Below are positions 4,837-21,898 of a stretch of DNA of 22,134 nt, in pieces. The stretch comes from Acidobacteriaceae bacterium (GTDB lineage: Bacteria; Acidobacteriota; Terriglobia; Terriglobales; Acidobacteriaceae): NCBI GenBank assembly GCA_030040395.1, contig JASHTU010000502.1, positions 1 through 22,134 on the forward strand. The letters are read 5' to 3'. Every line of letters starts with the position of its first letter. The first letter of the stretch is position 1. Both the position numbers and the translations under genes were made by a program. The notes beneath the pieces are model-generated. The model was given only the letters and a program-made list of their open reading frames with translations. It had not been told where the DNA came from and ran no database searches.

Positions 4837-4917
4837 ATCCAGCCCCTACGGTCCTGCCCAGAATCGCGACCCCCCGATGATCGATGACGATTCAGCCTGC
4901 AAGGTCTGAAATCTAGC

Positions 4918-5624: not shown

Positions 5625-5733
5625 GAGCTAGTACTAAATAGTATAAGTGATTGCAAACAAACCACTTAACTACAAAAGGGGTAGGGGGTAGGGGCGGGGT
5701 AACTGAAAAGTAAAGGTCATGCCGCACATCCGA

Positions 5734-5803
5734 CCTTGTTCCCTCGTTCCCATGTTCCCTCGTTCCCTTGTTCCCTTGTTCCCTCGTTCCCATGTTCCCT
5801 GCC
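5734..5803 (-). repeat. GTTCCC octamer tandem array (array B)
   Basis: Eight consecutive eight-base units NNGTTCCC are visible on the plus strand, with variable leading pairs in the order TT, TC, AT, TC, TT, TT, TC, AT. A 25-base block therefore recurs exactly at a 40-base spacing (5736-5760 and 5776-5800). On the minus strand the array begins with AGGCAGGGAAC five bases after the permease stop codon, the same arrangement as array A after the DinB-like gene. Confidence 0.85.
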
Positions 5804-5807
5804 TTTC

Positions 5808-7217: not shown

Positions 7218-7252
7218 CCGGCGATTATTCCATACGGCGGTGGGGCAAGGCC

Positions 7253-7534
7253 TTAGATTTCTGGGTAAAAGTCGAAGAACGCGTCGAGGCTGCGTAGTAG
7301 TTGGCGCTCGATTTCTTTACGCGAGCCTTCAATGGTGTGCATGGTCACGTGCGCCAGATGGCCGTTCGCCAGCTTGAGGGTCGCGTCTTCGATCTCCACC
7401 ACTTCGCCCTCGGGAAGCAGGCGCAGCCCGTAGATGAGAGTCAGATTGGCCATGGGAATCATCATATCTGGGGCGGAGAAATTGCAGGCGAACAAGGCTC
7501 GGTTTTCCGGGCCGCGAGGCTGGAGCTCACGCAT
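7253..7534 (-). CDS. Small conserved-looking protein of unknown function
   Basis: A 93-residue frame ending YPEI before TAA (7253-7255). It has an amphipathic beta-rich middle (VVEIEDATLKLANGHLAHVT) and a basic helical end (EGSRKEIERQLLRSLDAFFDF). I do not recognise the family. No clear ribosome site precedes the ATG at 7534; methionines at residues 24, 25 and 28 are alternative starts, and the conserved-looking part begins there. It lies 35 bases upstream of the GntP permease on the same strand, so the two may share a transcript, and diverges from trxB. Confidence 0.6.
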   Translation of the reverse strand: MRELQPRGPENRALFACNFSAPDMMIPMANLTLIYGLRLLPEGEVVEIEDATLKLANGHLAHVTMHTIEGSRKEIERQLLRSLDAFFDFYPEI

Positions 7535-7639
7535 GAAAAACGGCGCTTTGGGCGTTTTGGGAGCAGATCAAAAGGCCTGTAAACAGAAGTTGGCCGGGTT
7601 CGGGGCGACTCCTCCGTCTACAATCGACACGGGACATCC

Positions 7640-8587
7640 ATGGCAGAGATACGCGAGACAGTGATTCTTGGCTCCGGGTGCGCCGGACTGACGGCGGCGA
7701 TCTACACCGCGCGCGCCGGCTTGAAACCGCTGGTGCTGGAGGGCCACGAGCCCGGGGGGCAGCTTTCCATCACCACGATGGTCGAAAACTTTCCCGGTTG
7801 GCCGGAGGGCATTCAGGGGCCGGAACTGATCGACAACATGAAGAAGCAGGCGCAGCGGTTCGGCGCAAGCTTCGAGCTGGCGCACCTGAATGCCGTCGAA
7901 GTGGAAGCGCATCCCATGCGGCTGCAAACTTCGGCGGGCGAAATCCACGCGCGCACGATAATTGTCGCCTCGGGGGCCAGCGCGCGCTGGCTAGGCTTGC
8001 CCAGCGAACAGGCGCTGATCGGCCACGGCGTGTCGAGCTGCGCCACCTGCGACGGGTTCTTTTTCCGCGGCAAGGAGATTGCCGTGGTGGGCGGCGGCGA
8101 CTCGGCGATGGAGGAAGCGCTCTTCCTTACTCGCTTCGCCGCCAAGGTGACCGTGCTGCACCGGCGTGAGCATTTCCGAGCTTCGAAGATCATGCTGGAG
8201 CGCGTCATCGCGCATCCCAACATCGAGCTGCGCACCAATACGGTAGTAGAAGAGGTGCTGGGCGTCGAGGACAAGGAAGTGAAGGGGGTGCGGATCCGCG
8301 ACGTGGTTAATGGAGAGTCCTCCAATCTGGCTGTCGGCGGTCTTTTTCTGGGCATCGGCCACGTGCCTAACGCAGAGATGTTCGCCGGGCACATCGACCT
8401 CGACGAGGAAGGTTACATTAAGACCATCAATAACGTGTTTACGACGCGCAATGGCCAGGTGGTTTCCGGGGTATTTGCGTGCGGCGACGTGCAGGACCGG
8501 CGCTACCGGCAAGCGGTCACGGCCGCCGGATCGGGCTGCATGGCGGCGCTCGAAGCGGAGAAGTTCCTCGAGGAGCACGGACGGTGA
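7640..8587 (+). CDS. trxB: Thioredoxin reductase (NADPH)
   Basis: The 315-residue flavoprotein passes electrons from NADPH through FAD to a redox cysteine pair and on to thioredoxin in the cytoplasm. Visible features are the FAD-binding motif GSGCAG (11-16, with cysteine where most TrxB have proline), GGQL at 39-42, the active-site pair C134-A-T-C137 in SSCATCDGFF, the NADPH motif GGGDSAMEE (151-159) and the C-terminal FAD motif FACGDVQDRRYRQAVTAAG. Length is normal for the family. The ATG at 7640 follows only a weak GGGA site. It diverges from the small gene at 7253-7534 and is followed by a pseudogene remnant. A ferredoxin-type reductase is unlikely, given the CATC pair. Confidence 0.93.
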   Translation: MAEIRETVILGSGCAGLTAAIYTARAGLKPLVLEGHEPGGQLSITTMVENFPGWPEGIQGPELIDNMKKQAQRFGASFELAHLNAVEVEAHPMRLQTSAGEIHARTIIVASGASARWLGLPSEQALIGHGVSSCATCDGFFFRGKEIAVVGGGDSAMEEALFLTRFAAKVTVLHRREHFRASKIMLERVIAHPNIELRTNTVVEEVLGVEDKEVKGVRIRDVVNGESSNLAVGGLFLGIGHVPNAEMFAGHIDLDEEGYIKTINNVFTTRNGQVVSGVFACGDVQDRRYRQAVTAAGSGCMAALEAEKFLEEHGR

Positions 8588-8601
8588 GGACCTCTCTGTG
8601 A

Positions 8602-8793
8602 AGGCCGGCATCAAGAAGGATTGCGATAGCAACGGTCTTTCCCGGCTGCGACGCCGCGCAAAGCGATGGGTTCTTTGTGGTCTTTCTTATCGGTATGTGC
8701 TTCAACCGGCTTTGGGTGCTGCGGAGCTGGATCCCGGTGGCCAGGACCATGCCGCCCATGATCGCCGGGCTCAGGCACAATCCAGAACCATGA
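8602..8793 (+). pseudogene. Remnant of a DUF4188 monooxygenase-like gene
   Basis: The frame from a stop at 8599-8601 to TGA at 8791-8793 is open for 63 codons without a credible start. From about 8665 it reads DGFFVVFLIGM, then FNRLW, then WIPVARTMPPMIAGLRHNPE, and stops. This resembles, from memory, the N-terminal third of DUF4188 proteins (distant relatives of spheroidene monooxygenase), which read roughly DFVVFLIGM...KWLPV..AMPRML.EL..NPELG. The remaining two thirds are absent, since yggS begins at 8825. It is therefore a truncated relic between trxB and yggS. The similarity is from recollection of the family, not an alignment. Confidence 0.55.
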
Positions 8794-8824
8794 GAAAGCC
8801 GGAAGAGAGCGCGGCGCCAAAAGG

Positions 8825-9553
8825 ATGACGGGGCTCAAAGCAAATCTCGAGAAGCTGGAAGAAGCAATCGAGTCGGCTTGTCGCGCCGCGGGTCGCCCGC
8901 GCGGTGAAGTTGAACTGATGGCGGTCTCGAAGACGCTTCCCGCGGAGACGCTGGGCGAGGCCGCAGGCCTGGGGCTGACGCTGTTTGGCGAAAATCGCGT
9001 GCAAGAGTTCGCGGCCAAGGCCCTGCGGGCGGCGGAACTTTGGACGGGAGGGGTGCAAGAGCGGGTCCGCGTGCATCTGATTGGTCATTTGCAATCGAAC
9101 AAAGTGGCCCGCGCGGCGGAGCTTTTTGACGGGATCGATTCGGTCGACTCCGCGCGCCTGGCCGAGCGGCTGAACGAGGCGGCGGCCAAGTGCGGCAAGC
9201 ATTTACCAGCGCTCATCGAGGTGAAACTGAGCCCCGAAGAGACAAAGGCGGGGCTGGAGCCTGAGTCGGCGGAAATGGCCCGCCTGCTGGAGCTGTTGCC
9301 CGATCTCGAAAACTTGCAAATGCGCGGGTTGATGACCATCGCGCCGTGGGGGGCGCCGGAAACTGTAACGCGAGCGTGCTTCCGAAGCTTGCGCAGGTGG
9401 CGCGATGGCTGGGCCGCGGCGCATCCGCGTTTGAGCTTCGACGTACTCTCCATGGGCATGAGCGGTGACTTTGCGCTAGCCATCGCCGAAGGCGCTACGC
9501 GGATTCGCGTGGGATCGGCGCTTTTTGGCAAGCGCGTCCCGGAGCGGAGATAA
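8825..9553 (+). CDS. Pyridoxal phosphate homeostasis protein (YggS/PLPBP family)
   Basis: The 242-residue protein binds PLP without known enzymatic activity and helps maintain free B6 and amino-acid balance. Hallmarks are the PLP lysine K36 in MAVSKT, GENRVQE (55-61), HLIGHLQSNK (84-93), the strand with MRGLMTI and the phosphate-binding loop LSMGMSGDF, ending in a glycine/arginine-rich turn (TRIRVGSALFG). The ATG at 8825 has AAAAGG directly next to it, a poor spacing; the first helix supports it as the start. Its stop overlaps the next gene's ATG by one base (TAATG), so they are coupled. This yggS-yggU order is common in bacteria. Confidence 0.93.
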   Translation: MTGLKANLEKLEEAIESACRAAGRPRGEVELMAVSKTLPAETLGEAAGLGLTLFGENRVQEFAAKALRAAELWTGGVQERVRVHLIGHLQSNKVARAAELFDGIDSVDSARLAERLNEAAAKCGKHLPALIEVKLSPEETKAGLEPESAEMARLLELLPDLENLQMRGLMTIAPWGAPETVTRACFRSLRRWRDGWAAAHPRLSFDVLSMGMSGDFALAIAEGATRIRVGSALFGKRVPERR

Positions 9554-9858
9554 TGCTGCGCGTAACGCCCGGCGGGGTGGCGCTGGCGGTGCGCGTCCAG
9601 TTAGGCGCGAAGAAGACGGCCATCGCCGGCGTGTATGGCGACGGCGTCGGCGCGCAATTGAAGGTCGCTGTTCAGGCGCCGCCGCTTGAAGGTCGCGCCA
9701 ACGCAGCTTTGGTCGCCTTTCTCGCGGAGACATTTTCTTTGCCGAAGAACGCCATCGAGTTGCTGAGCGGGAAATCGGGGCGCAACAAAGTCTATCTACT
9801 TCGAGGCATTGCTTTGGCGGAGGCGGAAAGCATCTTACGCGACCGTTGTTCTCCATAG
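9553..9858 (+). CDS. DUF167 family protein (YggU-like)
   Basis: The 101-residue protein has the DUF167 pattern: an N-terminal strand with VRVQLGAKKT, the central APPLEGRANAALVAFLAE (58-75), and the terminal SGKSGRNKVYLLRGI. The fold is small alpha/beta and its biochemical role is not established. It overlaps yggS by one base, which implies translational coupling. It is the last gene of this plus-strand group and converges on the secreted protein gene whose stop is at 10007. I see no clear terminator in the 148 bases between. Confidence 0.9.
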   Translation: MLRVTPGGVALAVRVQLGAKKTAIAGVYGDGVGAQLKVAVQAPPLEGRANAALVAFLAETFSLPKNAIELLSGKSGRNKVYLLRGIALAEAESILRDRCSP

Positions 9859-10006
9859 CGTGTTTGAAAACTTACATAAGTTATCGGGCCGACGCTCAAG
9901 CTGCAGACTTGTAAGGTGAGGCGGTCCGATCTATAACAATCAGCTCGCCGCGGTAACTCTTGAAGATTCTCTTTTCAGCTCTCGTTTGCAGAATTCGATG
10001 GGATAA

Positions 10007-11041
10007 TTATTTTGCAAAGAAGCGATAACGAATGTTCCAGTCTTGGGCCTGACCGGGAAGGATGTGCAAATGAACATAGGCTTCAGGAGCAACTGTAGTG
10101 CGCACCGACCAGAAATTGAAGTTCGACATTGGGGAATCGCCCGATTGCTCGACGCCAACTCCAGTGTTCCGGTCTTCCACGGTAAAGTCGTAATCGGAAG
10201 CTCTGTTTGAGAAGCCGGTCAAAAAACTTGTGACTGATTGCCTTGGCTGCAGCTCCTCGTGATAAACAAGATCGTTCCCCTCAATCTCCCCGCCGTTCTG
10301 CAGTGGTCTGGTTGCATTGGGCGTGAATGCGAAGTGAACCACGATGCCGGGGCCGGTTGGCGTGTTATCGATCATGAAGAAATCATGCTCGTAAACGTCG
10401 GTGTCGATGATTTTTGTGCCGGTGTTCTTCATGGAGTGGTGAATCACCATTACGGGTTGACCTTTCACGAGCTGTAATACCTTTGTGTAAAGGTAGGAAT
10501 AGCCTATCGATGAATGAAGTCGCTGCGTAAAGGAGATCTCAGCGGGTTTTGCGTGCACAGTCCATTTTCCGGTGTCGACAATCGGGTAGAAAAACATATA
10601 CTTATACGGCGCGTCGCCTACTTTGCGCAACACGCCGACACCGGGCTTTACGAACAAGCCGCCGTCTTTGGCGTCACCGTAACCCAGGGCTCCGTCCGCA
10701 GAACGGAACTCTTCCACCGGCCCTGCGATGGAGTCGGCGACCAGCGGGTTATGATTTGGGGACCAAGCTCCAAAATAAGTATGGCCTTTATAAGCCAGGC
10801 ACGGAATAACTCCCGCCCAGTCAAAGCGCGTCGATCTATAGTAGCCATTGGTGGGATCCGGCAGGTAGATGACTGCATGAATCAGGTTGTTGGAGATTGA
10901 CGCCTGCGGAACATGAGCATCGGGAAGAGAAGCGCAAGGGTTGCCGGTGGCAGAATCGGCACCTTGAGTCCAACCCGTCTGAAACTGCAAAGCGGCTGCA
11001 AGAAAAACGAAAGCGATGACGTGAGTATTCGGAATTTTCAT
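10007..11041 (-). CDS. Secreted protein with probable aldose-1-epimerase/mutarotase-like fold
   Basis: The 344-residue protein starts with a Sec-type signal (hydrophobic residues 8-19, likely cleavage after about residue 26). The mature part is beta-rich and includes YSYLYTKVLQLVKG, VIHHSMKNTGTKIIDTDVYEHDFF (around 200-222) and a C-terminal YVHLHILPGQ. The pattern of a histidine pair, a 'NTG' turn and a downstream YEHDFF resembles galactose-mutarotase-superfamily proteins, but catalytic residues cannot be assigned. It lies in the same direction as, and 197 bases downstream of, a UxuA-like gene, so a role in sugar handling in the periplasm is plausible. Only a weak GGGA precedes the ATG. Another carbohydrate-binding role is equally possible. 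Confidence 0.6.
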   Translation of the reverse strand: MKIPNTHVIAFVFLAAALQFQTGWTQGADSATGNPCASLPDAHVPQASISNNLIHAVIYLPDPTNGYYRSTRFDWAGVIPCLAYKGHTYFGAWSPNHNPLVADSIAGPVEEFRSADGALGYGDAKDGGLFVKPGVGVLRKVGDAPYKYMFFYPIVDTGKWTVHAKPAEISFTQRLHSSIGYSYLYTKVLQLVKGQPVMVIHHSMKNTGTKIIDTDVYEHDFFMIDNTPTGPGIVVHFAFTPNATRPLQNGGEIEGNDLVYHEELQPRQSVTSFLTGFSNRASDYDFTVEDRNTGVGVEQSGDSPMSNFNFWSVRTTVAPEAYVHLHILPGQAQDWNIRYRFFAK

Positions 11042-11238
11042 GCTCTATCCCTCAGAACCAAAGACAGAACGCGCGCAAGAAAACAGCCCCGCTCATTGAG
11101 CGCTGGAAAGCTCATGCGCCCGCGGTCGAATGTTTCTCATCTTATAACACGCTGATGAAACGAAGAAGCGAGATAGCGAAACTCCTTCATTTCCCCACCG
11201 CAAGCATACTCTTCACGCTGAAGGCCGGCAAACGATCG

Positions 11239-12393
11239 CTATGCGCGAGCGAGCGCTTCGGCATGCGCCCGATAGAACAAGGCTTTCATATACGCAAAGC
11301 CATACGCATATTCGGCGTCGCGGCCACCCACTATGGTGGGCGTGTGGTCAAGAATGACAATCCCGTCAAAATTCACTTCCACGGCGGCCTTCGCAATTTG
11401 ATACATGTCATAATATCCATTGTCCATGAAGGTCTCAATGAAGTGCGGCAGAGGCGCGCTGACGTTGCGGAAATGCAGTTTCCAAATCTTCTCTTTTCCG
11501 AAGTAGCGGATCATTTCCGCAGGATCTTTATGCATAAGTTTGGGTCCGCCTTCGTTCCAGCACCCGCAGCAAAGGCAAATGCCGACATTCGGGCTGTTGG
11601 CGATTTCCATTGCGCGCTTATAGCCTTCAAAGTTAGCGAAGATGCAGCGCGGAACCCCCGCGAGAATCGGCTCCGGCGGATCGTCGGGGTGAATTCCAAT
11701 GCGCACGCTGTTTTCCTCCGCTACCGGAGCGACCTGTTTGATGAAGTAAGTGTAGTTGTCCCAAATCTCTTCTTGCGAAAAAACTCTTCCGTGTGACAGA
11801 GGTTCATAATACTTAATGTCGTTCCAGACACCCACCTTATTGGGGCTCGCCATGTCGAACTCTCGCGCCTCGGCCCCGCGGATGGTGGCTCGGCCACTGC
11901 TCCAGATGCCGTTGCCCATATGGGCGTATGTGGTGTAATAAATGTCCGCTTGGCCAAGATTGCGGAGGTATTGTTTGTACTCCTCTATCTTCTGATCGCG
12001 TCCGGGAAGGTTTAACGTAACTTCGGGCATGTTATGGACGCTGGAGTTGCCAATATTCCAAACTGTAATTCCCGCCTCCGCATAACGTTTCTTGATCTGC
12101 ATGAATCCTTCCGCGGTGCGCAAATCCGGAGTAGACGCCACGCTGACGTACTCGGCGCCAATCTGCTTGAAGAAAAGAAGCTCATCATCCGTGGGCTTGG
12201 CAGGGGCCTGCCCGGTCAATTTGAATCCCGGAGCGTTAGGATGCACGGTTGCCGACGCGCTCTTGGACGCCGACAGGAACACAGAGGCGCCGAGCGCACC
12301 GCCAACGGCAAGCTTCACGAATTCCCTGCGGTCGGGGTTGGCGAATATCCCGGTGAGTTCGGGGGCCAATTGTTCTTCTTCATTTTTTCGCAT
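11239..12393 (-). CDS. Tat-exported UxuA-like (mannonate dehydratase family) TIM-barrel protein
   Basis: The 384-residue protein has a twin-arginine leader: DRREFVKLA (21-29) then a hydrophobic stretch to about residue 50 ending in ASA. The rest fits the UxuA mannonate dehydratase family, which converts D-mannonate to 2-keto-3-deoxygluconate with a divalent metal. Probable metal ligands are H235 in IHPDDPP, C275 in the cysteine-rich ICLCCGC, H307 in LHFRN and D349-H350 in LDHTP. A perfect AAGGAGG lies six bases before the ATG at 12393. It lies 138 bases downstream of the receptor gene, separated by a strong hairpin. Characterised UxuA is cytoplasmic, so the exported form is unusual. The general sugar-phosphate isomerase/epimerase family is an alternative label. 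Confidence 0.8.
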   Translation of the reverse strand: MRKNEEEQLAPELTGIFANPDRREFVKLAVGGALGASVFLSASKSASATVHPNAPGFKLTGQAPAKPTDDELLFFKQIGAEYVSVASTPDLRTAEGFMQIKKRYAEAGITVWNIGNSSVHNMPEVTLNLPGRDQKIEEYKQYLRNLGQADIYYTTYAHMGNGIWSSGRATIRGAEAREFDMASPNKVGVWNDIKYYEPLSHGRVFSQEEIWDNYTYFIKQVAPVAEENSVRIGIHPDDPPEPILAGVPRCIFANFEGYKRAMEIANSPNVGICLCCGCWNEGGPKLMHKDPAEMIRYFGKEKIWKLHFRNVSAPLPHFIETFMDNGYYDMYQIAKAAVEVNFDGIVILDHTPTIVGGRDAEYAYGFAYMKALFYRAHAEALARA

Positions 12394-12491
12394 AGGCAGC
12401 CTCCTTCAGGCCATCGAGGCATCCGCAGCACGGATGCTCGACGATTTTGCTCTTCCAGCGGTAAAGCGGAGAGCAGCTATCTTCAGATCAT

Positions 12492-12523
12492 GCGGCGGGG
12501 AAAAGTGTGGCAGCCCCCGCCGC
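12492..12523 (-). terminator. Strong hairpin just after the TonB-dependent receptor stop codon
   Basis: GCGGCGGGG (12492-12500) and CCCCGCCGC (12515-12523) form a perfect nine-pair GC stem with a 14-base loop. It begins eight bases beyond the receptor stop (12532-12534) on the minus strand. No T-run follows, so it may be an attenuator or an mRNA-stabilising stem separating receptor from uxuA-like expression rather than a full terminator. Confidence 0.55.
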
Positions 12524-12531
12524 CTCGAAAT

Positions 12532-15500
12532 CTAGTAGGTTACTTTCATCGCGAACTGAATCTGCCGCGGATTGTTCGTGCTGAATAAACCGCTGATGAC
12601 TCCGAACGAGGTGCTGGAAGCCACGCCGGTGCCGGAGCCGACGGCAGAGCAGCAGGTGATGCCCGGGTAACCGAATTGAACACGGTTGAAAGTATTGAAC
12701 ATTTCGGCGCGAAACTGGAATCCGAAGCGCTCAGTGATCTGGGTCTGCTTAAAGATGGCCATGTCCCAGTTGGCGATGCCCTGGGTGCGCAGGTCGGGAT
12801 CGACCCGCGGCTCGTTTCCGAAGGCGTAGGGTCCCGTCTGGGCGAAGCAAGAGGTGTTGAACCAGGTTGCCCCTGGAAGGGTCTTGGAAAACGCCGACCC
12901 TCCGATCATCTTATTGCAGCCTGAAACCACGTTGGGGCGCGGCGATCCGGCGCCGAAGTTGGCGGTGAGCTGCGTGGGCTGTTCAAGAAAGATCAGCGGG
13001 AATCCGCTCTGGAAAGTTGTGATTCCGTCCAGGCCCCAGCCGCCAACAACCCTGTTCGTGGCGGGCTTTACGGAGCCAAGCAAGAATTTGCCCTGACCGA
13101 CAGGCGCGTCCAGTACGTAGCTGATTACTGTGCGCTGCGGAATGTTATAGCTGAGCTGAGAGTTTTCGGCTGCGAGATTTGTGAAGTCTTGCACTTCGCC
13201 GGGTTGAATGCCTTCCTGGAAGCCGGTCTGAGTATCTGCGTTGCCGAAGTCGTTGGCCCAGGTATAGACGCCCAGCAGCGTGCCCCCGGAGCCAAACCTC
13301 TTCTGGAATTTGACCTGCAGCGATTTATATTTCGAGAAATAGAGGACGGCCGCGGCGTTGTAAAGCTGGTAATACTGAGGATACGGACGCAGGAGCTGTC
13401 CAGCGGGGATGGTGGGGCCGGAAAGATTCCCCGACGTGATGAGTGTGCCCACGCCGATGAGCGGATTTGCCACGGGAGCCGACAGCGCCGCCCCCATGGA
13501 GTCATCCTGGTCGGGGAGCTGATTCATGGAATAACCGGTGTCGTTCAGGCCGGCCGGCCCCTGCTGGTGAATTCCATGATTGCCCACGTAGGCAATGTCC
13601 ACCATCATGTTGTGACCGAAATCCCGCTCGAAATCCACGTTCCATTGCTCGGTATAGGTCGATGGCTCCTTGGGGACCACCGCATCGACATTTTGTCCCT
13701 CGATTACGCTTTCGTAGTTGGCGCTTCTGCCCACCGGCTGTAGAACCCCGGTTGGGAATGGGTTGTCGAGGGAATTAGTTGGCGCGTTTGCGCCTGCCGC
13801 CAGGTTGGTGAAGGCAAGCTCTACGGGATTCTGGTAGGGCTGCGCATCCTGCTGGATGGCTGCCGTCGGCGCATAGAATAACCCCCATCCTCCGCGGATC
13901 ACCATTCGGGGCGTGAGCCGGAATGCGGCGCCGAGGCGCGGCGCGAAATCATGATAAACGGGGATTTCATTGGTTCTATGGGGATACGCGGATGTATTCA
14001 CAAGAACTTCATCGCCTTTTAGAGGCAGGCCCGTGGTCGCCGCCATGGGATTGGTCAAGTTGGCAAGGAACACGCCTTGCCGGTCGTGCCGCTCCTTCCA
14101 GTATCCCGGGTACTCCCAGCGGATTCCGAGGTCGAGGGTCAAGCGGTTGTTTACGTGGTAAGTATCGCCCAGGTAAGCGCCGGCATAATACATCACGTTC
14201 GCCGGGATGATGACGTTCTCTTCAATGGTGGCCTGGGGAATGCCCAACAGGAAGTTAGCGAACGCGTTGTTGCTGAAGTCGGTATTGAAGTTGAAAGTCT
14301 CCACGTCGGTGGAGTTGGTCTGGCCGTAGTTATCGGGCGCTCGCCGGAATTCCCCGCCTGCCAGGATTGTGTGACGTCCCAGCAGCTTGGTCAAGCTGCC
14401 CGAGAGCGCGTAATTCTCGGTCGTCGCGGGAATGTATTGCCCGCCTCCTCCATTGGTTGTGTAGCCCGATACTGTGGCGCGCGGGAGCACCGGGCTGTCA
14501 AGTTGGGCGACGGTGGCCGCCGGCCAGTCAAAGGGGGTAAGGTTGAAAGGGATGCCCGTAGCTCCGCTCCAGCCCACGTCGCGGAAATAGGAAAGATCCA
14601 GATTCAGGACCGTCTTGGAGTTGAGCGTAACGTCATCGCCCAGCACCATACTATTCACGGTGTTCCGAGCCAAGGTGAGATTGCTCGTGATGACGCCAAA
14701 GGGCGGAGCTCCCGGCTGAACGAATCGGTGGAACGTGTAACGCCCGAAGATACGCTGCTTGGCGCTGGCGTTCCAGTCCATGCGGGAAGTGTATTGATTC
14801 AGCACGGGTCGGACCGTGGTGTTGATGATGTAATTGTTAACGTTCAGATTAGCGAAGGCTGGTTGGGGCTGCGGCCAGAGATAGAGCATGGCCTTCGCCG
14901 TCGGATTGATGCGGTTGGCGGGAATGGTGTAATTCGGGAACGTGGTTCCCGGAGCCGCCGCAGTCCAGGTCGAGACCTCGCCCGAGTCGGGGCAGCCGGC
15001 CCCCGAGCAGGGAGAAGTCGTCCAATATCCCGGATCGGTAATGGCCTTAGTCAGATTGTTCAGAGTAATGTCGCCGGCCCCATCCATGGTGTAGTTGGGC
15101 ACCGAGTCAGTAGCCGTGGACCCGATGGCAGCGCGAATGCCTTCATAGCTGAAAAAGAAGAACAACCTGTCTTTTTTGATGGGGCCGCCCAGCGTGGCGC
15201 CGAACTGGTTCTGAATGAATGCGGGCTTCTTGGCGTGCGCGCGGTCCCCGTAAAACGTGTTGGAATTCAGCACCGTGTTGCGCAGGTAGTCGTAGCTGTC
15301 GCCGTGAAAATCATTGTTTCCGCTCTTGGTGATCATGGTCATCACGCCGTCTTCCGTGCTGCCGAATTCCGGTCCGATATTGTTGGCTTCGATGCGGAAT
15401 TCCTGAATCGATTCCTGGGCCGGAGCATAGGAAATGGCATTGATGTAACCGTTGTTGATGGGCGCGCCATCCACAAAGACGGCTTCGGTATTGGGAATGC

Positions 15501-16218
15501 CACCCGATATTTGGTAGTTGCCTTGAGAGAAGGCGTTGCCTTCATTACCTGAGGCCGCATTGGACGCCGAGGCCGCGGTTCCGCCCTGCGGAACAACGCC
15601 GGGCGTGAGTGCGAGGAGGTTGAAGACCATTTTCCCGTTCAAGGGCATGTCGCTGACAACTCTGCCCTCCACGACCTGGCCAACCGTAGCCTGCTGCGTT
15701 TCGATGAGCGGCGCCGCGGAGGTGACTTCCACGGTCTGACTGACTGTTCCGACCGCGAGAGCGGCGTCTACACGCGTGGAGCCCTGCACCTGGACGACGA
15801 CATTGATTCGGGTGAAGTGCTTAAAGCCCGTGTCCTCCACATCAACTCGATAGTTGCCCGGCACAATATTCACAAAGTCGTAATCGCCAGCGCCGTTCGT
15901 CGCCATATTCCGTTTGTCGCCGGTGCCCACATTAGTCAGGGTGACCGTTGCGCCCACGACTACGTTGCCCGAGTTGTCAGTAACTGATCCTACCACCGAT
16001 CCATACGCATTTTGGGCATGCAGCGCACCGCAGCAGAGAGTAAGTGTGCCGATCAGGCAGACAAAGGCGGCGATAGTCGTGTAATGCGCCTGCAAATATC
16101 CCCGTACCTTGCGGCCGACAGTGGTTCCCGAGTGCCCGCGCAGCGTTCCTTGTCCGCTCAGCATTCCGGTCATTGCCAAGAAACTGATGTCGATGCTGCC
16201 TTCCCGAAAACCCTTCAT
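12532..16218 (-). CDS. Oar-like TonB-dependent outer-membrane receptor with carboxypeptidase-regulatory-like domain
   Basis: The 1228-residue protein has a hydrophobic signal segment (about 47-66, cleavage near AHA/Q at 69), a carboxypeptidase-regulatory-like beta sandwich (about 72-155, GSVVGSVTD...GDYDFVNIVPGNYRV), a plug region from about 160 (VEVTSAAPLIETQQATVGQV, then MPLNGK) and a large beta-barrel ending QIQFAMKVTY with a terminal aromatic. Such receptors bind large ligands outside the cell and import them with TonB energy. They are very abundant in Acidobacteriota, usually beside carbohydrate genes. GGGAGG lies five to six bases before the ATG at 16218 and supports this start, which leaves a 46-residue N-terminal extension before the signal segment. 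The ligand cannot be read from the sequence; the neighbours suggest a glycan. Confidence 0.93.
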   Translation of the reverse strand: MKGFREGSIDISFLAMTGMLSGQGTLRGHSGTTVGRKVRGYLQAHYTTIAAFVCLIGTLTLCCGALHAQNAYGSVVGSVTDNSGNVVVGATVTLTNVGTGDKRNMATNGAGDYDFVNIVPGNYRVDVEDTGFKHFTRINVVVQVQGSTRVDAALAVGTVSQTVEVTSAAPLIETQQATVGQVVEGRVVSDMPLNGKMVFNLLALTPGVVPQGGTAASASNAASGNEGNAFSQGNYQISGGIPNTEAVFVDGAPINNGYINAISYAPAQESIQEFRIEANNIGPEFGSTEDGVMTMITKSGNNDFHGDSYDYLRNTVLNSNTFYGDRAHAKKPAFIQNQFGATLGGPIKKDRLFFFFSYEGIRAAIGSTATDSVPNYTMDGAGDITLNNLTKAITDPGYWTTSPCSGAGCPDSGEVSTWTAAAPGTTFPNYTIPANRINPTAKAMLYLWPQPQPAFANLNVNNYIINTTVRPVLNQYTSRMDWNASAKQRIFGRYTFHRFVQPGAPPFGVITSNLTLARNTVNSMVLGDDVTLNSKTVLNLDLSYFRDVGWSGATGIPFNLTPFDWPAATVAQLDSPVLPRATVSGYTTNGGGGQYIPATTENYALSGSLTKLLGRHTILAGGEFRRAPDNYGQTNSTDVETFNFNTDFSNNAFANFLLGIPQATIEENVIIPANVMYYAGAYLGDTYHVNNRLTLDLGIRWEYPGYWKERHDRQGVFLANLTNPMAATTGLPLKGDEVLVNTSAYPHRTNEIPVYHDFAPRLGAAFRLTPRMVIRGGWGLFYAPTAAIQQDAQPYQNPVELAFTNLAAGANAPTNSLDNPFPTGVLQPVGRSANYESVIEGQNVDAVVPKEPSTYTEQWNVDFERDFGHNMMVDIAYVGNHGIHQQGPAGLNDTGYSMNQLPDQDDSMGAALSAPVANPLIGVGTLITSGNLSGPTIPAGQLLRPYPQYYQLYNAAAVLYFSKYKSLQVKFQKRFGSGGTLLGVYTWANDFGNADTQTGFQEGIQPGEVQDFTNLAAENSQLSYNIPQRTVISYVLDAPVGQGKFLLGSVKPATNRVVGGWGLDGITTFQSGFPLIFLEQPTQLTANFGAGSPRPNVVSGCNKMIGGSAFSKTLPGATWFNTSCFAQTGPYAFGNEPRVDPDLRTQGIANWDMAIFKQTQITERFGFQFRAEMFNTFNRVQFGYPGITCCSAVGSGTGVASSTSFGVISGLFSTNNPRQIQFAMKVTY

Positions 16219-16611
16219 GGATGACCTCCCTGTGCGTTATGTTGAGACTTGTATGGTGTTCCCTCAGTTATTATGATCGATAGGTGAGACAACTTCAGAC
16301 TTGGGGCGAGACTTTAGCTCCGCCCTAGCACGTTTGTCAAGTCCTATTCTGTGTACCCGCGGTAAAAGCTGTTATTTTGAACCATCGGAGAGGCATCCCC
16401 ACGCACCGCCGTTCGAGATAGGCGTAGTCTGTTGAGTGCATCAAAAGGAAGCAACGACCCACGTCCCCGTTCGCAGGGCGCTCAGGTTCGAGGAGTAAGT
16501 CATATTGGGTCACTCTAAAGAGCCCGAGTTGCACACTCCTACGCTGGGGAAACTCCAAATAGCTCAGCCTCCGCGCGAAGCATCAACGAAAACGCGTACG
16601 GTGTACGAGGG
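16219..16611. other. Intergenic region upstream of the receptor gene
   Basis: No credible gene lies in these 393 bases. They carry a likely sigma70-type promoter reading toward the receptor (16311-16340) and a small CGTAC/GTACG hairpin (16595-16607) five bases beyond the PQQ dehydrogenase stop. The rest shows nothing I can name. Confidence 0.6.
16311..16340 (-). promoter_or_regulatory. Candidate sigma70 promoter for the TonB-dependent receptor
   Basis: On the minus strand a perfect TTGACA (16335-16340) is followed after 18 bases by TAAAGT (16311-16316). Transcription would begin near 16303, giving a leader of about 85 bases before the ATG at 16218. The -10 matches consensus at four of six positions. 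Confidence 0.45.
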
Positions 16612-18759
16612 TTACGGCAGCGCGAAAGCAACGTACATTCCGCCTTGAGGTTCCCTGCTTGTTTGCCCTCCGCTGGCGGCGATTACCACATATTGTTTCC
16701 CATCCACCATGTAGGTAGAAGGCGTAGCCAAGCCGGCATAGGGAAGTTTAGTCTCCCATACAAGCTTTCCGGTGCTGCTATCGTAGGCGTGAAACTCATC
16801 GTCGAAAACTGAGGCGCCGATAAATAGCAGACCGCCCGCAGTAACCACGGGGCCGCCGTAGTTATCGGAGCCTGTGTTGGCCATGCCTTTTGCCACTAAC
16901 TCCGGGTACTCTCCGAACGGGATTTTCCATAGATATTTGCCCGTGTTCATGTCGATGGCGCTCAAAGTGCCCCACGGCGGCGCCGTCGCCGGATAACCTT
17001 CAGGGTCGAGGAAGCGGCGAAAGGCGATGGTCTTGTATGGCATGTCATTGACAGCGGCGCTGGTTTCGGCCCCTACTCCCGCTCCTGCCACACCGCTGAG
17101 CGGACGCCGGAATTGCTGCTGCTGCGGAATCCTCGTCAGGTAGTCCACTACCGATTGAACCTCGTTGTCCCTCAAGTTATTGAACGGAGGCATGCGGCCC
17201 CTACCCTGGCGGATAATGGCGGCGATTTCAGAATCGGTGAGAATACCTTCGATTCCGCGCAATGAAGGAATCGAAGGCGGAGAGCCTCCGCGTGTAAGAC
17301 CGTGGCACATGCTGCATTGATTCTGGTATACGCGCTCGCCTAAACTTCCCGGCGGTGGAGGCTTTGTAAGTCCAACCAGCCATGCCGTGTCGTTAGCGTT
17401 GACATAGAGCACGCCCGTATTTGGATCCACCGCAGGACCACCCCATTCAGAACCGCCGGCAAAGCCCGGCATGTCCACGGTCAACTTGTCCACGCTCGGA
17501 GGAACGAACTGCCCGCCGCCGATAAATGTCTTGAACTGTTTCTCTGCCCAAGCGTGCGCCTCAGGCGTGCGGTTGGTGAGCGAATCCAGGGTGACGCTTT
17601 GATGGGTGTAGGGAGCGGGCAGAGTGGGCAAGGGTTGGGTGGGCGAAGTTATTTCGCCCGGCACGGTGCTGGCCGGATAGGGGGATTCCCTGATCGGAAA
17701 CAGCGGCTTGCCGGTGACGCGATCGAAGAGATATACATAGCCCGACTTCGTGGTTTGCGCAACGGCGTCAATTTTCTTGCCGTCGCGCATGACTGTCAGC
17801 AGCGGCGGTTGGGCGGGAAAGTCCCGATCCCAAACATCGTGGTGGACGCCTTGAAAATACCAGATCAATTTGCCGGTCTCGGCGTTCAGAGCCAGCAGCG
17901 TGTCGGCAAACAGATCGTTTCCGACACGGTCGCCTCCGTAGAAATCGAAGACCGCGGAGCCGGTCGGAACGTAGACTATGCCGCGCTTGGTGTCGACACT
18001 CATGCCTGCCCAGTTATTGGCGGCGCCGGCGTCTTTCCAGGCCCTCTTGGGCCAGGTGTTATATCCCGGCTCGCCCGGGCGGGGAATGGTGTGGAACGTC
18101 CAACGCAAGGCCCCGGTGCGCACGTCGTAGGCGCGAATGTCTCCAGGCGGGGCCGGATGCGTCTCAGGATCTTCTCCGCCAATAATGATAAGGTCTTTGT
18201 AAATTGCTCCCGGAGAAGTTAGGGACGTCGACTGTAGTTCATAAGGCTCACGGAGGCCTTTGCGCAAATCGATTTTGCCGTCTTCGCCAAAACCCGGGAT
18301 CGATTTGCCGGTTTTTGCGTCGATCGCGTAGAGATAATAACGAAAGCCGGCGAAGATGCGGCTATCATGGCCATCGGTCCAATAGGAGACGCCCCTCGCC
18401 CGCGCGCGGCCGCCGATGTCGGGGGTAAACTTCCACAACAGCTTGCCGGTGGCGGCATCGAGGGCAATCACGCCTGGATTCGGGGTCAACGTGTAAAGGA
18501 CGCGGCCGATAACAAGCGGGTTTGCCTCTATTTCTCCTCGTTCACCCGTGTCGTACTTCCAGACCACCGCCAGCTTGTCGACATTACTGCGATTGATCTG
18601 GGACAAGCTCGAATAGTGGTCCGCCGCCGGCTGTCCTCCGTAAGCGGGCCAGTCCTCGATCGTGTTTCCACTGGTTTGGTGTTGTGCCGCCGCATATAAG
18701 CCGACCGCACAGAGCGCGAATCCGGAAGCCAGCGCCGCGCACAACTGCATTTTCTTCAT
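16612..18759 (-). CDS. PQQ-dependent dehydrogenase with internal cytochrome c domain
   Basis: The 715-residue protein begins with a Sec signal (hydrophobic 6-24) and forms an eight-bladed quinoprotein propeller with repeated W-motifs (AATGKLLWKF, ETGKLIWYF, NTGKYLWKI, STGKLVWET). The block NNWAGMSVD (248-256) and HHDVWDRDFPAQP (306-318) match membrane glucose dehydrogenase-type enzymes, including the probable catalytic aspartate. A cytochrome c domain is inserted at about 470-545: C482-S-M-C485-H486, with M523 in GRGRMPPF as the likely sixth haem ligand. The propeller then resumes to the C-terminus. Family members oxidise aldoses or alcohols in the periplasm and pass electrons to the haem. 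No PQQ synthesis genes lie nearby. GGGATAGC precedes the ATG. The exact substrate is unknown. Confidence 0.92.
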   Translation of the reverse strand: MKKMQLCAALASGFALCAVGLYAAAQHQTSGNTIEDWPAYGGQPAADHYSSLSQINRSNVDKLAVVWKYDTGERGEIEANPLVIGRVLYTLTPNPGVIALDAATGKLLWKFTPDIGGRARARGVSYWTDGHDSRIFAGFRYYLYAIDAKTGKSIPGFGEDGKIDLRKGLREPYELQSTSLTSPGAIYKDLIIIGGEDPETHPAPPGDIRAYDVRTGALRWTFHTIPRPGEPGYNTWPKRAWKDAGAANNWAGMSVDTKRGIVYVPTGSAVFDFYGGDRVGNDLFADTLLALNAETGKLIWYFQGVHHDVWDRDFPAQPPLLTVMRDGKKIDAVAQTTKSGYVYLFDRVTGKPLFPIRESPYPASTVPGEITSPTQPLPTLPAPYTHQSVTLDSLTNRTPEAHAWAEKQFKTFIGGGQFVPPSVDKLTVDMPGFAGGSEWGGPAVDPNTGVLYVNANDTAWLVGLTKPPPPGSLGERVYQNQCSMCHGLTRGGSPPSIPSLRGIEGILTDSEIAAIIRQGRGRMPPFNNLRDNEVQSVVDYLTRIPQQQQFRRPLSGVAGAGVGAETSAAVNDMPYKTIAFRRFLDPEGYPATAPPWGTLSAIDMNTGKYLWKIPFGEYPELVAKGMANTGSDNYGGPVVTAGGLLFIGASVFDDEFHAYDSSTGKLVWETKLPYAGLATPSTYMVDGKQYVVIAASGGQTSREPQGGMYVAFALP

Positions 18760-18972
18760 GCTATCCCCTAAGCTGATGAATAAATCGCCGCTATCACTTT
18801 ATCGATCGCCCAATTTTCCGTGCAAAGCATAGACGCAGGCCGCGCTTGGTTACCGAGCGGGAAATTCACTGATCCCGGCCGGTCTGCGGGAGGGGTCCAT
18901 GCGTTCTTCCTCATCTTACCGGGTCGACGTTGGAGCGCTTCGGAAACGTCGAGAGCTGTAGCCCTGCGGTGC

Positions 18973-19001
18973 CTTATATGGGACCCAAAACTCATTGTCA
19001 A
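18973..19001 (-). promoter_or_regulatory. Candidate sigma70 promoter for the PQQ dehydrogenase
   Basis: On the minus strand TTGACA (18996-19001, six of six) and TATAAG (18973-18978, five of six) are spaced by 17 bases, the optimal distance. Transcription would begin near 18966 and run into the dehydrogenase at 18759. Confidence 0.55.
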
Positions 19002-19288
19002 GCAAAAAGAAGTCCTTTCCAAATCATGCAGATATCCAGATCGATCCATGAGCCGGCAAAGACGAAAACGACTGCGAGGCGATCGCGGGTCTGGGAAGGA
19101 AAGCTCCGTTCCCGCAAAGATTTTCTGCGCTCGGCCGGAGACCGGTTGGGGACCATCTGCGCAATTCCTATTTCATCACGTCCGCCGGGATTAGCGTGCG
19201 GCTCAATCGATTCATATTTGCGACCTCAGAGACTCTTGAGTCAACGATTTGGGGCGGATACGCGCAACCTGCTTTCAAGAAAGAAGGG

Positions 19289-19323
19289 AACCCCACTCCC
19301 GCGAATGGCGCAGGGGCGGGGTT
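19289..19323 (-). terminator. Rho-independent-like terminator after the RraA-family gene
   Basis: Arms AACCCC and GGGGTT (19289-19294, 19318-19323) extend inward with further pairs and an inner GCG/CGC stem around a CCATT loop. On the minus strand the hairpin is followed by a pyrimidine-rich CCCTTCTTTCTT. It sits 52 bases after the RraA-type stop codon and would separate that gene from the PQQ dehydrogenase. Confidence 0.45.
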
Positions 19324-19375
19324 GTTAAATTACGCAGCGTGAAGGTTATCGGTCAGGGAGGAGACAATCCGACGG

Positions 19376-20350
19376 CTAGTGACCGGGGGGGCGGCCCGCG
19401 CCGGAATTGCGTCGATTCATGCGCTCCATTGTCTCGTTGTACATTTGTTCGAACTCCTCCTTGGTCATCTTCAGCTGGTCAGGATGAGCTTCGACCCACT
19501 GTTTGAAGCCCGCGAATTTCTCGGCGTTCCAACCGCCTTCGAACTGGCCGCCGTTCTTGCCTTCGCGATTGAGCTCGAAGTTGTACGCATCCATGAGATT
19601 GGTGAATTCGGCGGTGCTGATGGCCTGCTCAGCCAGAATGGCGGGAACGAAGAGCACTCCTTCCGCGTTGGCTATCACCAGGTCTCCGGGCAAAACTACG
19701 GCGTGACCAATGCGAATGGGACAATTAATGCACGTGATTTCCTCCTGCATCCAAAAGGAGGGATCGTAGCCCTTGTAAAAGCCGTTGAAGTCTGGGATTT
19801 CGCGGTTTTCTTCTTGGTCGCGGATGCCGCCGTTGAAGATGAAACCGCTGTGCGTGTGCGCGGCGATTCCATTGCCAAGATTGGAGCCGATGAGGGTGCC
19901 GTCGGCGATTTTGCCGTAGCCATCGGCGACGTAGACATCACCCTGAACTAACTCCTGGATGGGCCAGCTATTGTTGAATTCCCAGGGGATGCGTCCTTCC
20001 GACTTGCCTTCCGCAGCTTCTGCTTTGGTGACATCGGGGCGGGATGGCATGTACTGGACGGTTAAGGCGCGGCCCGTGACAGCCTTGTCCATGTGCAGCG
20101 CCTGCCAGGTGCCCTCAAATTGGTTTTCATAGCCACGGCCACGCAGAAAATCCCAAACATCTTCCGTGGAGACATCCAGAGCGCGCTTGAGCAAGTCGTC
20201 GGGAACTTTCGGACGGCCATCGGGAAAGCGCTCGCCCTTCCAGTCCGCGGTGTAGAACATGATCTGTTCCTTGGTTTGCTTGACCTGAGCATGAGCAAAG
20301 GTCCCAAGCAAAGTTGAGGTGATAAGGGCGGCGATAGTCGACTTCTTCAT
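19376..20350 (-). CDS. Secreted RraA/HMG-aldolase family protein
   Basis: With the start chosen at 20350 the protein has 324 residues and a Sec signal, KKSTIAALITSTLLGTFAHA (2-21). AAGGAG lies four bases before this ATG; an adjacent ATG at 20353 is too close to it, and an upstream in-frame ATG at 20425 would bury the signal. The core matches the RraA family (4-hydroxy-4-methyl-2-oxoglutarate/4-carboxy-4-hydroxy-2-oxoadipate aldolase type): GDVYVADGYG (137-146), GSNLGNGIAAHTHSGFIFNG, the catalytic R177-D178 in GGIRDQ, and HAVVLPGDLVIANAEGVLFVP (216-236). Members cleave keto acids to pyruvate or decarboxylate oxaloacetate; others only inhibit RNase E. An exported copy cannot be an RNase E inhibitor. 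A charged C-terminal extension (about 260-324) is extra to the core. Confidence 0.82.
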   Translation of the reverse strand: MKKSTIAALITSTLLGTFAHAQVKQTKEQIMFYTADWKGERFPDGRPKVPDDLLKRALDVSTEDVWDFLRGRGYENQFEGTWQALHMDKAVTGRALTVQYMPSRPDVTKAEAAEGKSEGRIPWEFNNSWPIQELVQGDVYVADGYGKIADGTLIGSNLGNGIAAHTHSGFIFNGGIRDQEENREIPDFNGFYKGYDPSFWMQEEITCINCPIRIGHAVVLPGDLVIANAEGVLFVPAILAEQAISTAEFTNLMDAYNFELNREGKNGGQFEGGWNAEKFAGFKQWVEAHPDQLKMTKEEFEQMYNETMERMNRRNSGAGRPPGH

Positions 20351-20779
20351 CATTCTCCTTGATGGCGCCGGGGAGCTTGTCGGCGATTCCGAAAAGTTTG
20401 AGTGTAACGTCGTTGGATTATACATAACGACGGATGAAGCGCGATAATGGGCCGATGGCGCTCATTTTCCAATTCGAACCGGATGATTGAAAAAAGAGAG
20501 GTTCGCGCAAGTTTTCCTTCGCGTGTAAGCCTTTTGCGGGCAGAAAGGTGAGAGCTCTGTCGCCCTCGATGAAAAGGAAGAATTCGATTCCCCATTTGCG
20601 ATTGCAGGAAGGAAAAATGGCGGGGTTCGGTGGATTCGACCTTGTATGTTGGAAATTGAAAGGCCTGAGACGAAAGCCAAGCCGGCCACGTCAGATTAAA
20701 GGGAAGGCGCCGGGCCGATCGATAGCGCGAGACCCGCCAAAAAATTCCGAAAAAGATGAGGAGAGAATAGAGAGCTATT
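20351..20779. other. Divergent regulatory region between rraA-like and uxuA-like genes
   Basis: The 429 bases have no credible gene. Near the rraA-like start they hold a palindrome with a TATAAT box (20408-20432). The side next to the plus-strand gene is purine-rich and ends in AGGAGAGAATAGAGAG before the TTG start. I see no clear -35/-10 pair for the plus-strand gene. Confidence 0.55.
20408..20432 (-). promoter_or_regulatory. Palindromic candidate operator overlapping a TATAAT box
   Basis: CGTCGTT (20408-20414) and AACGACG (20426-20432) form a perfect seven-base inverted repeat with an 11-base spacer. The spacer holds a perfect TATAAT on the minus strand (20417-20422). Transcription would start near 20410, about 60 bases before the rraA-like ATG at 20350. 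No good -35 is visible, as is common for regulated promoters. A dimeric regulator bound here would block the -10. Confidence 0.5.
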
Positions 20780-21898
20780 TTGAGATCCAATCGTCGCGAA
20801 TATCTTAAAGGAGTTCTGGCCACCATGGCCACCGCTGCCGCCACGCCCTCCGCCCTCGCGGCGCTAGCGTCGCGGAATTCGCCACGCAAGGCGGATCATG
20901 ACCAGGGCGCTTCCGGAACGGCGATCACGTTGAGCTTGATCTGGGGCATCCGTGATCCACACCGTGTCAAGCTATCAGAGCAAATTGGAGTCACACACGG
21001 CATCGCGGGAACCGATATGATTCTGCGCAACCTTCGACACGACCAGTATGCCGACGCCATTGGTAAGTTGAAGGCGAACTACGAGGCTGCCGGACTGAAG
21101 ATCGCGGGCATCGAAAGCCATCCCGTGGACGCGGACAAGATCAAGCTTGGTCTTCCTGGCCGCGACGACCAAATAGCGAACTATAAAGCGGCGCTCGAGG
21201 CGCTCGGCAAGAACGGCATTGACTTGGTGTGTTACGACTTTATGGCGGGCATCGATTGGTATCGCTCTAATCTGCATACGTCTAGCCGATGCGATAGTTC
21301 GACGATGGATTTCGACATCGCCACCGCCGAGGCCCTGGGACCAACTCAATGGGGTCAGATCAGCGCCGAAAAAATGTGGAGCAACATGGAGTATTGCCTC
21401 AAAGCGGTGATGCCGGCCGCGGAAAAGGCGGGCGTCAAGATGGCTCTGCACCCAGACGATCCGCCCATCCCCAATCTGCGCGGGATTTCCAGGATCATTA
21501 TCAACGCCAACGCCTACCGACGAGTGATGAAGATCCTGCCTAGCCCTTTCAACGGGGTAACCTTCGAAATGTCGGTCTTTCACCTCATGGGCGAGAACCT
21601 TCCGGCGTTGGCGCGGGCGTGGGGCCGAGAGAACAAAATCTTTTTTGCCCACTGCCGCAACGTCAGGGGCACGCGCGAGCACTTTGCCGAGACCTTTCAG
21701 GACAACGGAGACATTGATTTCGGCGAAGTCTTCCAGGCGCTCTATGATAACGGCTTTCACGGTCCGATCCGTCCCGACCACGATCCAATTATGGACGGAG
21801 AGACACACGTGGAGCCGGGTTACGGGGTGACCGGCAAGATCTTCGCCATCGGCTATATCAAGGGAGTGCTGGAAAGCCGTCACATCCCATACGTGTAA
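20780..21898 (+). CDS. Tat-exported UxuA-like (mannonate dehydratase family) TIM-barrel protein, second copy
   Basis: The 372-residue protein starts at TTG (20780), chosen because it gives the twin-arginine motif NRREYLKG (4-11) before a hydrophobic alanine-rich stretch; an ATG at residue 16 would lose it. The body is UxuA-like. Expected metal ligands are H224 in LHPDDPP, H291 in AHCRN and D333-H334 in RPDHDP, but the cysteine ligand seen in typical UxuA (TMCTGS in E. coli) is glutamate here, E263 in TFEMS. The reaction of the family is mannonate to 2-keto-3-deoxygluconate; the substitution may change metal or substrate. It is divergent from the rraA-like gene and a distant paralogue of the copy at 11239-12393. 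Confidence 0.82.
   Translation: MRSNRREYLKGVLATMATAAATPSALAALASRNSPRKADHDQGASGTAITLSLIWGIRDPHRVKLSEQIGVTHGIAGTDMILRNLRHDQYADAIGKLKANYEAAGLKIAGIESHPVDADKIKLGLPGRDDQIANYKAALEALGKNGIDLVCYDFMAGIDWYRSNLHTSSRCDSSTMDFDIATAEALGPTQWGQISAEKMWSNMEYCLKAVMPAAEKAGVKMALHPDDPPIPNLRGISRIIINANAYRRVMKILPSPFNGVTFEMSVFHLMGENLPALARAWGRENKIFFAHCRNVRGTREHFAETFQDNGDIDFGEVFQALYDNGFHGPIRPDHDPIMDGETHVEPGYGVTGKIFAIGYIKGVLESRHIPYV

Follow-up and report, generated by a model that had tools for sequence, protein, structure and literature searches.

Genes around an RraA-like protein in an Acidobacteriaceae genome: a possible exported module of sugar-acid breakdown

The splitting of sugars into pyruvate is usually regarded as a cytoplasmic process. 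Could it, in some bacteria, take place outside the inner membrane instead? The question is raised by a group of genes on contig JASHTU010000502.1 of an Acidobacteriaceae bacterium (assembly GCA_030040395.1), which encode an RraA-like protein, a pyrroloquinoline quinone (PQQ)-type dehydrogenase with a cytochrome c domain, a TonB-dependent receptor, two UxuA-like proteins (1 and 2) and an exported-looking protein of 344 aa, the 10007 protein. The whole stretch analysed, 22,134 nucleotides, is referred to here as the window. A sequence-only reading of it had proposed that five enzyme-like proteins with export signals, encoded around the receptor, could carry out mutarotation, oxidation, dehydration and aldol cleavage in series outside the cytoplasm. 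Here we compare this locus with its relatives in other genomes.

We lean, slightly, towards the view that a widespread exported module, which would break down sugars or sugar acids outside the cytoplasm, is present here in one of its forms. What is observed is the co-occurrence of the genes, their export-type N-termini and the retention of active-site residues; the substrates, the reactions, their order and the location of the mature proteins are what we infer. The TonB receptor would let the sugar in, and the PQQ/cytochrome c dehydrogenase, with some form of help from the 10007 protein, would turn an aldose into an aldonate. An exported dehydratase, UxuA-like here and usually of the enolase superfamily elsewhere, would convert the aldonate to a 2-keto-3-deoxy acid, which the exported RraA would split into pyruvate and an aldehyde. 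The products would be imported via MFS or BASS/PanS-like carriers, which are seen in relatives. A bolder proposal is that several phyla possess a complete non-phosphorylating Entner-Doudoroff-like sequence outside the cytoplasm, made up of quinoprotein oxidation, dehydration by an enzyme exported through twin-arginine translocation (Tat) and cleavage by a Sec-exported RraA, and import only the fragments, pyruvate for instance, by way of carriers of the BASS/PanS-like or MFS type. This is possible, but in our estimate falls a little short of being probable.

Recurrence was examined most widely by scanning a collection of 84,980 species with an alignment of RraA-like proteins (A1). This gave at least 577 relatives, of which the best 80 by similarity were kept, regardless of their neighbours. 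These loci span Acidobacteriota, Bacteroidota, Alphaproteobacteria and Planctomycetota; many are cut by contig ends, and the set overlaps with the others used here because several genomes were read otherwise too (L105/L035; L107/L207/L231). An acid-sugar dehydratase of the enolase superfamily, mostly with a Tat-like start, lies near RraA in 53 of the 80 loci, with a median gap of 288 bp for those within 6 kb, while UxuA-like proteins do so in 12. The usual partner of an exported RraA is thus not UxuA, to which the sequence-only reading had assigned the dehydration. The enolase-type gene is the open reading frame (ORF) directly adjacent to RraA in 37 of the 80 loci, 33 times on the same strand; with random other ORFs of the same loci, adjacency averaged 10.5 and never exceeded 18 over 200 runs. 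Further neighbours are SBF/BASS carriers of the PanS-like kind (22), MFS carriers (10), SusC (10), OAR-type receptors (9), SusD (9), proteins of the N-acylglucosamine 2-epimerase type (8), PQQ dehydrogenases (8) and GSDH plus cytochrome c (6). SDR proteins, a yardstick of unequal sensitivity in that they were sought with one sequence and the enolase-type proteins with a nine-sequence profile, are present at 7. Taken by role, any dehydratase is found at 54 loci, an oxidiser (PQQ or GSDH) at 13, an importer at 32 and an outer-membrane receptor at 20; dehydratase and oxidiser accompany RraA together at 10, at distances of up to 9 kb, and an importer joins them at 5.

Adjacent RraA/dehydratase pairs are present, for example, in Dyadobacter fermentans JDP9 (L165), Mucilaginibacter roseus LMG 28454 (L145) and Runella sp. 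MFBS21 (L146), and three alphaproteobacterial loci (L125, L127, L129) hold RraA, an enolase-type protein and a PQQ dehydrogenase. The enolase-type protein of locus L034 has enolase-superfamily members as its best PDB relatives, several of them named ManD or dehydratase. It scores 185 and 164 bits with the galactonate and mannonate dehydratase models, as against 69 with muconate cycloisomerase, all below the cut-offs. In 62 of 62 rows these proteins keep the His and the Glu residues at metal positions two and three, and the first ligand is either Asp (53 rows) or Glu (9 rows). The SBF/BASS carriers beside RraA are candidate importers of pyruvate or other keto acids; one of them (L175:8848-9990) has the PanS ketopantoate transporter as its best NCBIfam model, at 255 under a cut-off of 400. 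DUF362 proteins, some with Tat-like starts, lie near RraA/dehydratase clusters at 5 of the 80 loci (e.g. L105:6023-7279), and a Serpin-family protein (L115:3262-4446) directly adjoins an exported RraA gene.

Closer relatives give a similar picture. In 60 related genomes, a long-type RraA (E < 1e-50) was found at 18 places in 15 genomes, the window included. A UxuA-like protein lies within 10 kb at 10 of these places, seven times within 400 bp (window included), an enolase-superfamily protein at 9, and either type of dehydratase at 12. From the gene densities of the RraA-bearing genomes, about 1% (UxuA-like) and about 4% (enolase-superfamily) would be expected per place; for the binomial values, the counts were entered by hand and the genome sizes rounded. 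The proximity of UxuA-like and RraA genes in related genomes is more than chance.

The sequence-only reading had looked to co-occurrence in related genomes as its check. The set does recur, but UxuA 1 by itself is largely found apart from the other genes. In a genome of the same genus (G020, locus L047) the order is TrxR, YggS, DUF167, the 10007-type protein (82% identity), UxuA 1 (94%), PQQ dehydrogenase (88%) and RraA (88% over the C-terminal part only, which is all that the contig holds). In another genus of the same family (G388, L229), UxuA, PQQ dehydrogenase (70%), a member of the 10007 family (58%) and RraA (70%) follow one another directly on a single strand, in surroundings that include two enolase-type genes and a TonB receptor; this UxuA has a Tat-like start and the third of the metal-ligand patterns described below. 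A third genome (G277, L208) has UxuA 1 (80%) 71 bp before the PQQ dehydrogenase (73%). Further RraA loci of the class were read as well, and at the 19 with the best scores enolase-type proteins are present at 8, TonB receptors at 8, PQQ dehydrogenases at 5, UxuA at 3 and the 10007-type protein at 1; G275 was added as a 20th locus, outside these counts because UxuA was already known there. A FAD/BBE-type oxidase with a Tat-like pattern (L031:13421-15193), in a neighbourhood with RraA, UxuA, enolase-type and MFS genes, is a possible alternative sugar oxidiser.

An arrangement with genes for every proposed step is found in Chitinophagaceae (L136, JANWIY010000005.1), where five genes are consecutive on one strand with gaps of 49, -1, 12 and 42 bp: RraA (4806-5738), a dehydratase with a Tat-like start (5788-7287), a PQQ dehydrogenase with cytochrome c and a lipobox-like start as judged by eye (7287-9476), a UxuA with a Tat-like start (9489-10631; NF003027 255 over 191) and an MFS carrier (10674-11927), whose best model is a D-galactonate transporter at 267 under 395. 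All ten ManD positions checked are kept in this UxuA, and full ManD residues are also found in its counterpart in a close relative (L134), which has the same order at 87-96% identity and a shorter PQQ frame that holds an unread letter. An oxidiser, a dehydratase and RraA, each with an export-type N-terminus, co-occur in L136, in L229 and in the window. Such sets in several phyla support the earlier idea of oxidation, dehydration and cleavage in series outside the cytoplasm, although core details of it had to be corrected.

In the window the minus-strand genes are, along transcription, the RraA-like protein (19376..20425; PF03737, 64 bits; likely true start at 20353 or 20350), the PQQ-type dehydrogenase of 715 aa with an inserted cytochrome c domain (16612..18759; PF01011, 632 bits, and PF13442) and haem-binding motif CSMCH (17302..17316), the TonB-dependent receptor with a carboxypeptidase-regulatory-like domain and outer-membrane barrel (12532..16218; PF25183, 635 bits, PF13620 and PF00593), UxuA-like protein 1 of 384 aa (11239..12393; PF03786, 150 bits) and the 10007 protein (10007..11041, an ORF call). 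As the gaps between these ORFs are 138-616 bp, they form a same-strand cluster and no tight operon. UxuA-like protein 2 (372 aa; 20780..21898, plus strand; PF03786, 249 bits) is transcribed divergently from them. None of the cluster proteins meets an NCBIfam equivalog cut-off, and UxuA 2 passes one subfamily cut-off.

Are these proteins exported? Signals were judged by a home-made heuristic in place of SignalP, on starts from our own ORF caller. The caller relies on the codon usage of the window and its starts are frequently late in low-GC genomes, for which reason N-termini were re-read with upstream extension. The RraA-like protein begins with a Sec signal peptide, MMKKSTIAALITSTLLGTFAHA (20288..20353, minus strand), whose position is kept in A1: the hydrophobic signal ends before the invariant Gln47 in 17 of 17 rows, row L034 beginning late because of its called ORF start. 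The PQQ dehydrogenase and the 10007 protein have Sec-like N-termini, and UxuA 2 scores as Tat, with NRREYLK followed by a hydrophobic stretch. The export signals noted by the sequence-only reading are borne out in these four proteins. UxuA 1, for which it had also claimed Tat, was not scored as such since an Asp, which our Tat pattern excludes, precedes RREFVK. Its N-terminal region (12250..12393, minus strand, end judged by eye) does show DRREFVK and a hydrophobic stretch, a looser RR pattern is present at 16 of 20 loci with UxuA 1 homologues (L226 among these being dubious), and an RR motif is visible in L214-L216 though the pattern missed it. At the RraA-selected loci, 45 of the 68 enolase-type neighbours and 11 of the 12 UxuA neighbours show the Tat pattern, versus 29 of 356 other ORFs. 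All six proteins of the cluster appear to carry export-type N-termini, from which the mature proteins would be located outside the cytoplasm.

The closest RraA relatives in named records are from metagenome-assembled genomes of Acidobacteriota, at 78-79% identity. Arg202-Asp203 of the window protein (19817..19822, minus strand) align with Arg123/Asp124 of HMG/CHA aldolase, and this active-site pair is kept in 71 of 71 aligned rows.

UxuA 1 keeps the ligand positions His235, Cys275, His307 and Asp349, which correspond to ManD positions His199, Cys237, His266 and Asp310 (S. suis numbering); we take the latter to have metal-ligand roles. It is below the NCBIfam cut-offs (NF003027, 124 vs 191; TIGR00695, 95 vs 200), and UxuA 2 is over the first (219) and under the second (149). 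Three metal-ligand patterns were seen in 33 UxuA-like rows, with Cys, with Glu, or with Asp together with a change of Asp310 to Glu, and they may mark different reactions. Homologues of UxuA 1 (E 1e-60) occur in 76 of 399 genomes of the class, in a search that scored up to four candidates per genome; the 20 loci examined are the best of other genomes, the window and G018 being left out. Near them the 10007-type protein is found three times and an enolase-type protein four times, and RraA is also near the UxuA 1 homologue in G018. A GH115 family protein (L033:11162-13360) adjoins an orthologue of UxuA 2 (78% identity; L033:9444-10571), which hints at a uronic acid from plant polysaccharide as substrate.

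The PQQ dehydrogenase has TIGR03074 as its best NCBIfam model, at 460 bits below a cut-off of 833. Its loci were read individually, and class-wide co-locations were not used as counts because only two candidates were scored per genome. The 10007 protein, was called mutarotase-like in the sequence-only reading, a label that is not confirmed: no Pfam or NCBIfam family was matched, nor was any meaningful PDB sequence match obtained with the protein or a 70-row profile. One homologue has a sub-threshold DUF4432 match (E 0.12), and a single-sequence fold prediction reached a predicted local distance difference test score (pLDDT) of 32, too low to be of use. The family has 1627 homologues; among the 120 listed, all given names are hypothetical protein, with no Pfam family. 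Ten loci of the family, from three genomes only (G020, G030 and G050), include a PQQ dehydrogenase in six, a UxuA-like protein in two and both in one; neither is present at the remaining three, at one of which the contig stops. Members beside PQQ dehydrogenases were seen in the window, L047, L087, L088, L090, L091 and L093. The 10007 protein is a member of an uncharacterised family linked to PQQ dehydrogenases, and one might guess that it accompanies aldose oxidation, for instance by exchanging anomers or opening lactones. In L218 (297-3769) UxuA 1, a 10007-type protein and a 7-bladed lactonase (PF10282) are consecutive on one strand, with the 10007-type protein between the others. The TonB receptor gene, between those for PQQ dehydrogenase and UxuA 1 in the window, is absent from that place in the syntenic L047, and the receptor was rejected as an obligate member of the cluster. 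UxuA 1 was likewise rejected as an obligate partner of RraA.

Several observations weigh against an exported pathway of this kind. The signal heuristic gave false positives for two of eight cytoplasmic control genes of the window (TrxR as Sec-like, an SDR as Tat), and the Sec test is loose, scoring 64 of 76 RraA proteins but also 168 of 356 other ORFs. Three residues on from its invariant Asp, RraA has Glu in 33 of the 71 rows and Gly in the other 38; the window protein has Glu, and an acidic residue at this place is presumably an element of the HMG/CHA-type aldolase motif. The residues of UxuA 1 that align with ManD Arg308 and Tyr325 are Ile and Gly, and its 20 homologue loci have RraA and a PQQ dehydrogenase nearby once each. 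UxuA 2 (Glu263 codon, 21566..21568, plus strand) and three orthologues have Glu in place of the metal Cys at position 237 of the S. suis enzyme, for which reason mannonate, the intermediate suggested earlier, is not established as a substrate. Neither an enolase-type dehydratase nor a clear importer was found in the window, and neither type of dehydratase is in reach at 26 of the 80 RraA loci, in some cases because the contig is too short. Another model that the PQQ protein resembles is TIGR04528, the 'acido-empty-quinoprotein' (240 bits, cut-off 650). PqqE over its cut-off was found in one of the 60 genomes (G020) and not in the 77%-complete genome of the window; the count was restricted to matches over the cut-off because a search at E 0.001 gives matches in every one of the 60 genomes and in the 14 controls as well. 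PQQ import is possible in principle, but within Acidobacteria PqqU is reported only for Vicinamibacteria (PMC12124388).

What else might these proteins do? Does RraA cleave its keto acid, as the sequence-only reading had it, or does it remove water and carbon dioxide from it? The conserved Arg/Asp pair suits cleavage, PMC5065237 assigning roles to Arg123/Asp124 in HMG/CHA aldolase, but the same pair would serve a dehydratase/decarboxylase reaction, and according to the same paper that aldolase decarboxylates oxaloacetate as well. A dehydratase/decarboxylase of 2-keto-3-deoxy acids, with a product of the ketoglutarate-semialdehyde type instead of pyruvate and an aldehyde, is the main rival because of FlDet of Flavobacterium, which according to PMC8563752 is an RraA-family enzyme of this kind that acts on KDGR and whose gene flanks one for an exo-type alginate lyase. 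Against it, the BASS/PanS-like carriers at RraA loci suit the import of pyruvate or another small keto acid, though they would suit other keto acids too; we regard this rival as unlikely, but as one to be taken seriously. Less likely again, and rather improbable in our view, is that the exported UxuA-like and perhaps the enolase-type proteins carry out other sugar chemistry, such as epimerisation or a lyase reaction, in a loose carbohydrate neighbourhood. The replaced metal ligands of UxuA 2 and of the third class would fit this, as would the scores of UxuA 1 and the rarity of RraA and PQQ genes near its homologues, but the close spacing of UxuA-like and RraA genes in related genomes, the full ManD residues in L134 and L136 and the intact metal and His positions of the enolase-type proteins argue against it.

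Could the setting instead be the breakdown of aromatic or hydroxy-dicarboxylic acids, with RraA as an HMG/CHA-type aldolase and its enolase-superfamily partner as a cycloisomerase? The closest characterised RraA-fold aldolases do belong to protocatechuate and gallate pathways (PMC5065237), and the ligK_PcmE model of NCBIfam matches the window RraA, at 45.3 bits, far from reaching its cut-off of 304.5. However, the L034 partner scores as a galactonate dehydratase well above muconate cycloisomerase, and the neighbours are UxuA, PQQ/GSDH-type dehydrogenases, a D-galactonate-transporter-like MFS protein and SusC/SusD, so that we consider this reading very improbable. Just as little credence is given to a cytoplasmic pathway whose N-terminal signals are misread starts. 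Our own ORF caller and the flagged control genes leave room for such an error, but the RraA signal keeps its aligned place in all 17 rows, enolase-type and UxuA neighbours from different phyla repeatedly show RR motifs, and the cytochrome domain of the PQQ enzyme has a CXXCH motif.

The flanking genes of the window encode ArgH, GNAT, ROK, SDR, DinB, GntP, thioredoxin reductase-like, YggS-like and DUF167 proteins, and ARAGORN found no tRNA in the window. The GntP permease (5808-7217) found no support as the importer: TrxR, YggS and DUF167 intervene, and GntP occurs at one of the 80 RraA loci. Short tandem arrays with 8/16-bp units, complementary in orientation, at 4787-4836 and 5734-5800 flank a stretch without ORFs of 100 aa. 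The SDR-family ORF at 3322-4071 has 44 last residues beyond its family match, possibly from a frameshift.

If the exported module exists as proposed, a large family of exported RraA proteins, with at least 577 relatives, would gain a function, and so would Tat-exported enolase-superfamily dehydratases. Were sugars split outside the inner membrane, electrons could pass straight to cytochrome c, small fragments would enter the cell in place of sugars, and any pyruvate that leaked away could nourish neighbours in the soil. Searches of open-licence texts in PubMed Central showed no exported sugar-acid dehydratase/aldolase pathway, which is weak evidence of novelty.

How does the module compare with known systems? 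The RraA-like protein shares its fold family (PF03737) and the invariant Arg/Asp equivalents with HMG/CHA aldolase and RraA, and differs in its predicted export, its greater length, its distance from the ligK_PcmE cut-off and its sugar-acid-type neighbours. FlDet is likewise of the RraA family, acts on a 2-keto-3-deoxy acid and has its gene beside that of a polysaccharide lyase; as described in PMC8563752 it is a 27 kDa protein with other neighbours and a reaction that is not aldol cleavage, and it is likened here by description, not by sequence. With the PQQ glucose, quinate and shikimate dehydrogenases (TIGR03074) the window enzyme shares a propeller and predicted export, whereas its match to the model starts only at position 147 and it has an inserted cytochrome c domain. 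UxuA/ManD mannonate dehydratases share PF03786 and most metal-ligand positions with the window proteins, which have Tat-like signals, and UxuA 2 passes NF003027 with Glu in place of Cys. The dehydratase partners in relatives share PF13378/PF02746 and the metal and His positions with the galactonate and mannonate dehydratases of the enolase superfamily, and are set apart by Tat-like N-termini and scores below the equivalog cut-offs. The non-phosphorylative Entner-Doudoroff and related pathways are generally cytoplasmic, with dehydrogenases that depend on NAD(P) and aldolases of other families. The proposed module would share their sequence of steps, in which oxidation is followed by dehydration to a 2-keto-3-deoxy acid and then by aldol cleavage, all without phosphorylation, whereas the genes found here are those for a PQQ enzyme together with a dehydratase and an RraA that are predicted to be exported.

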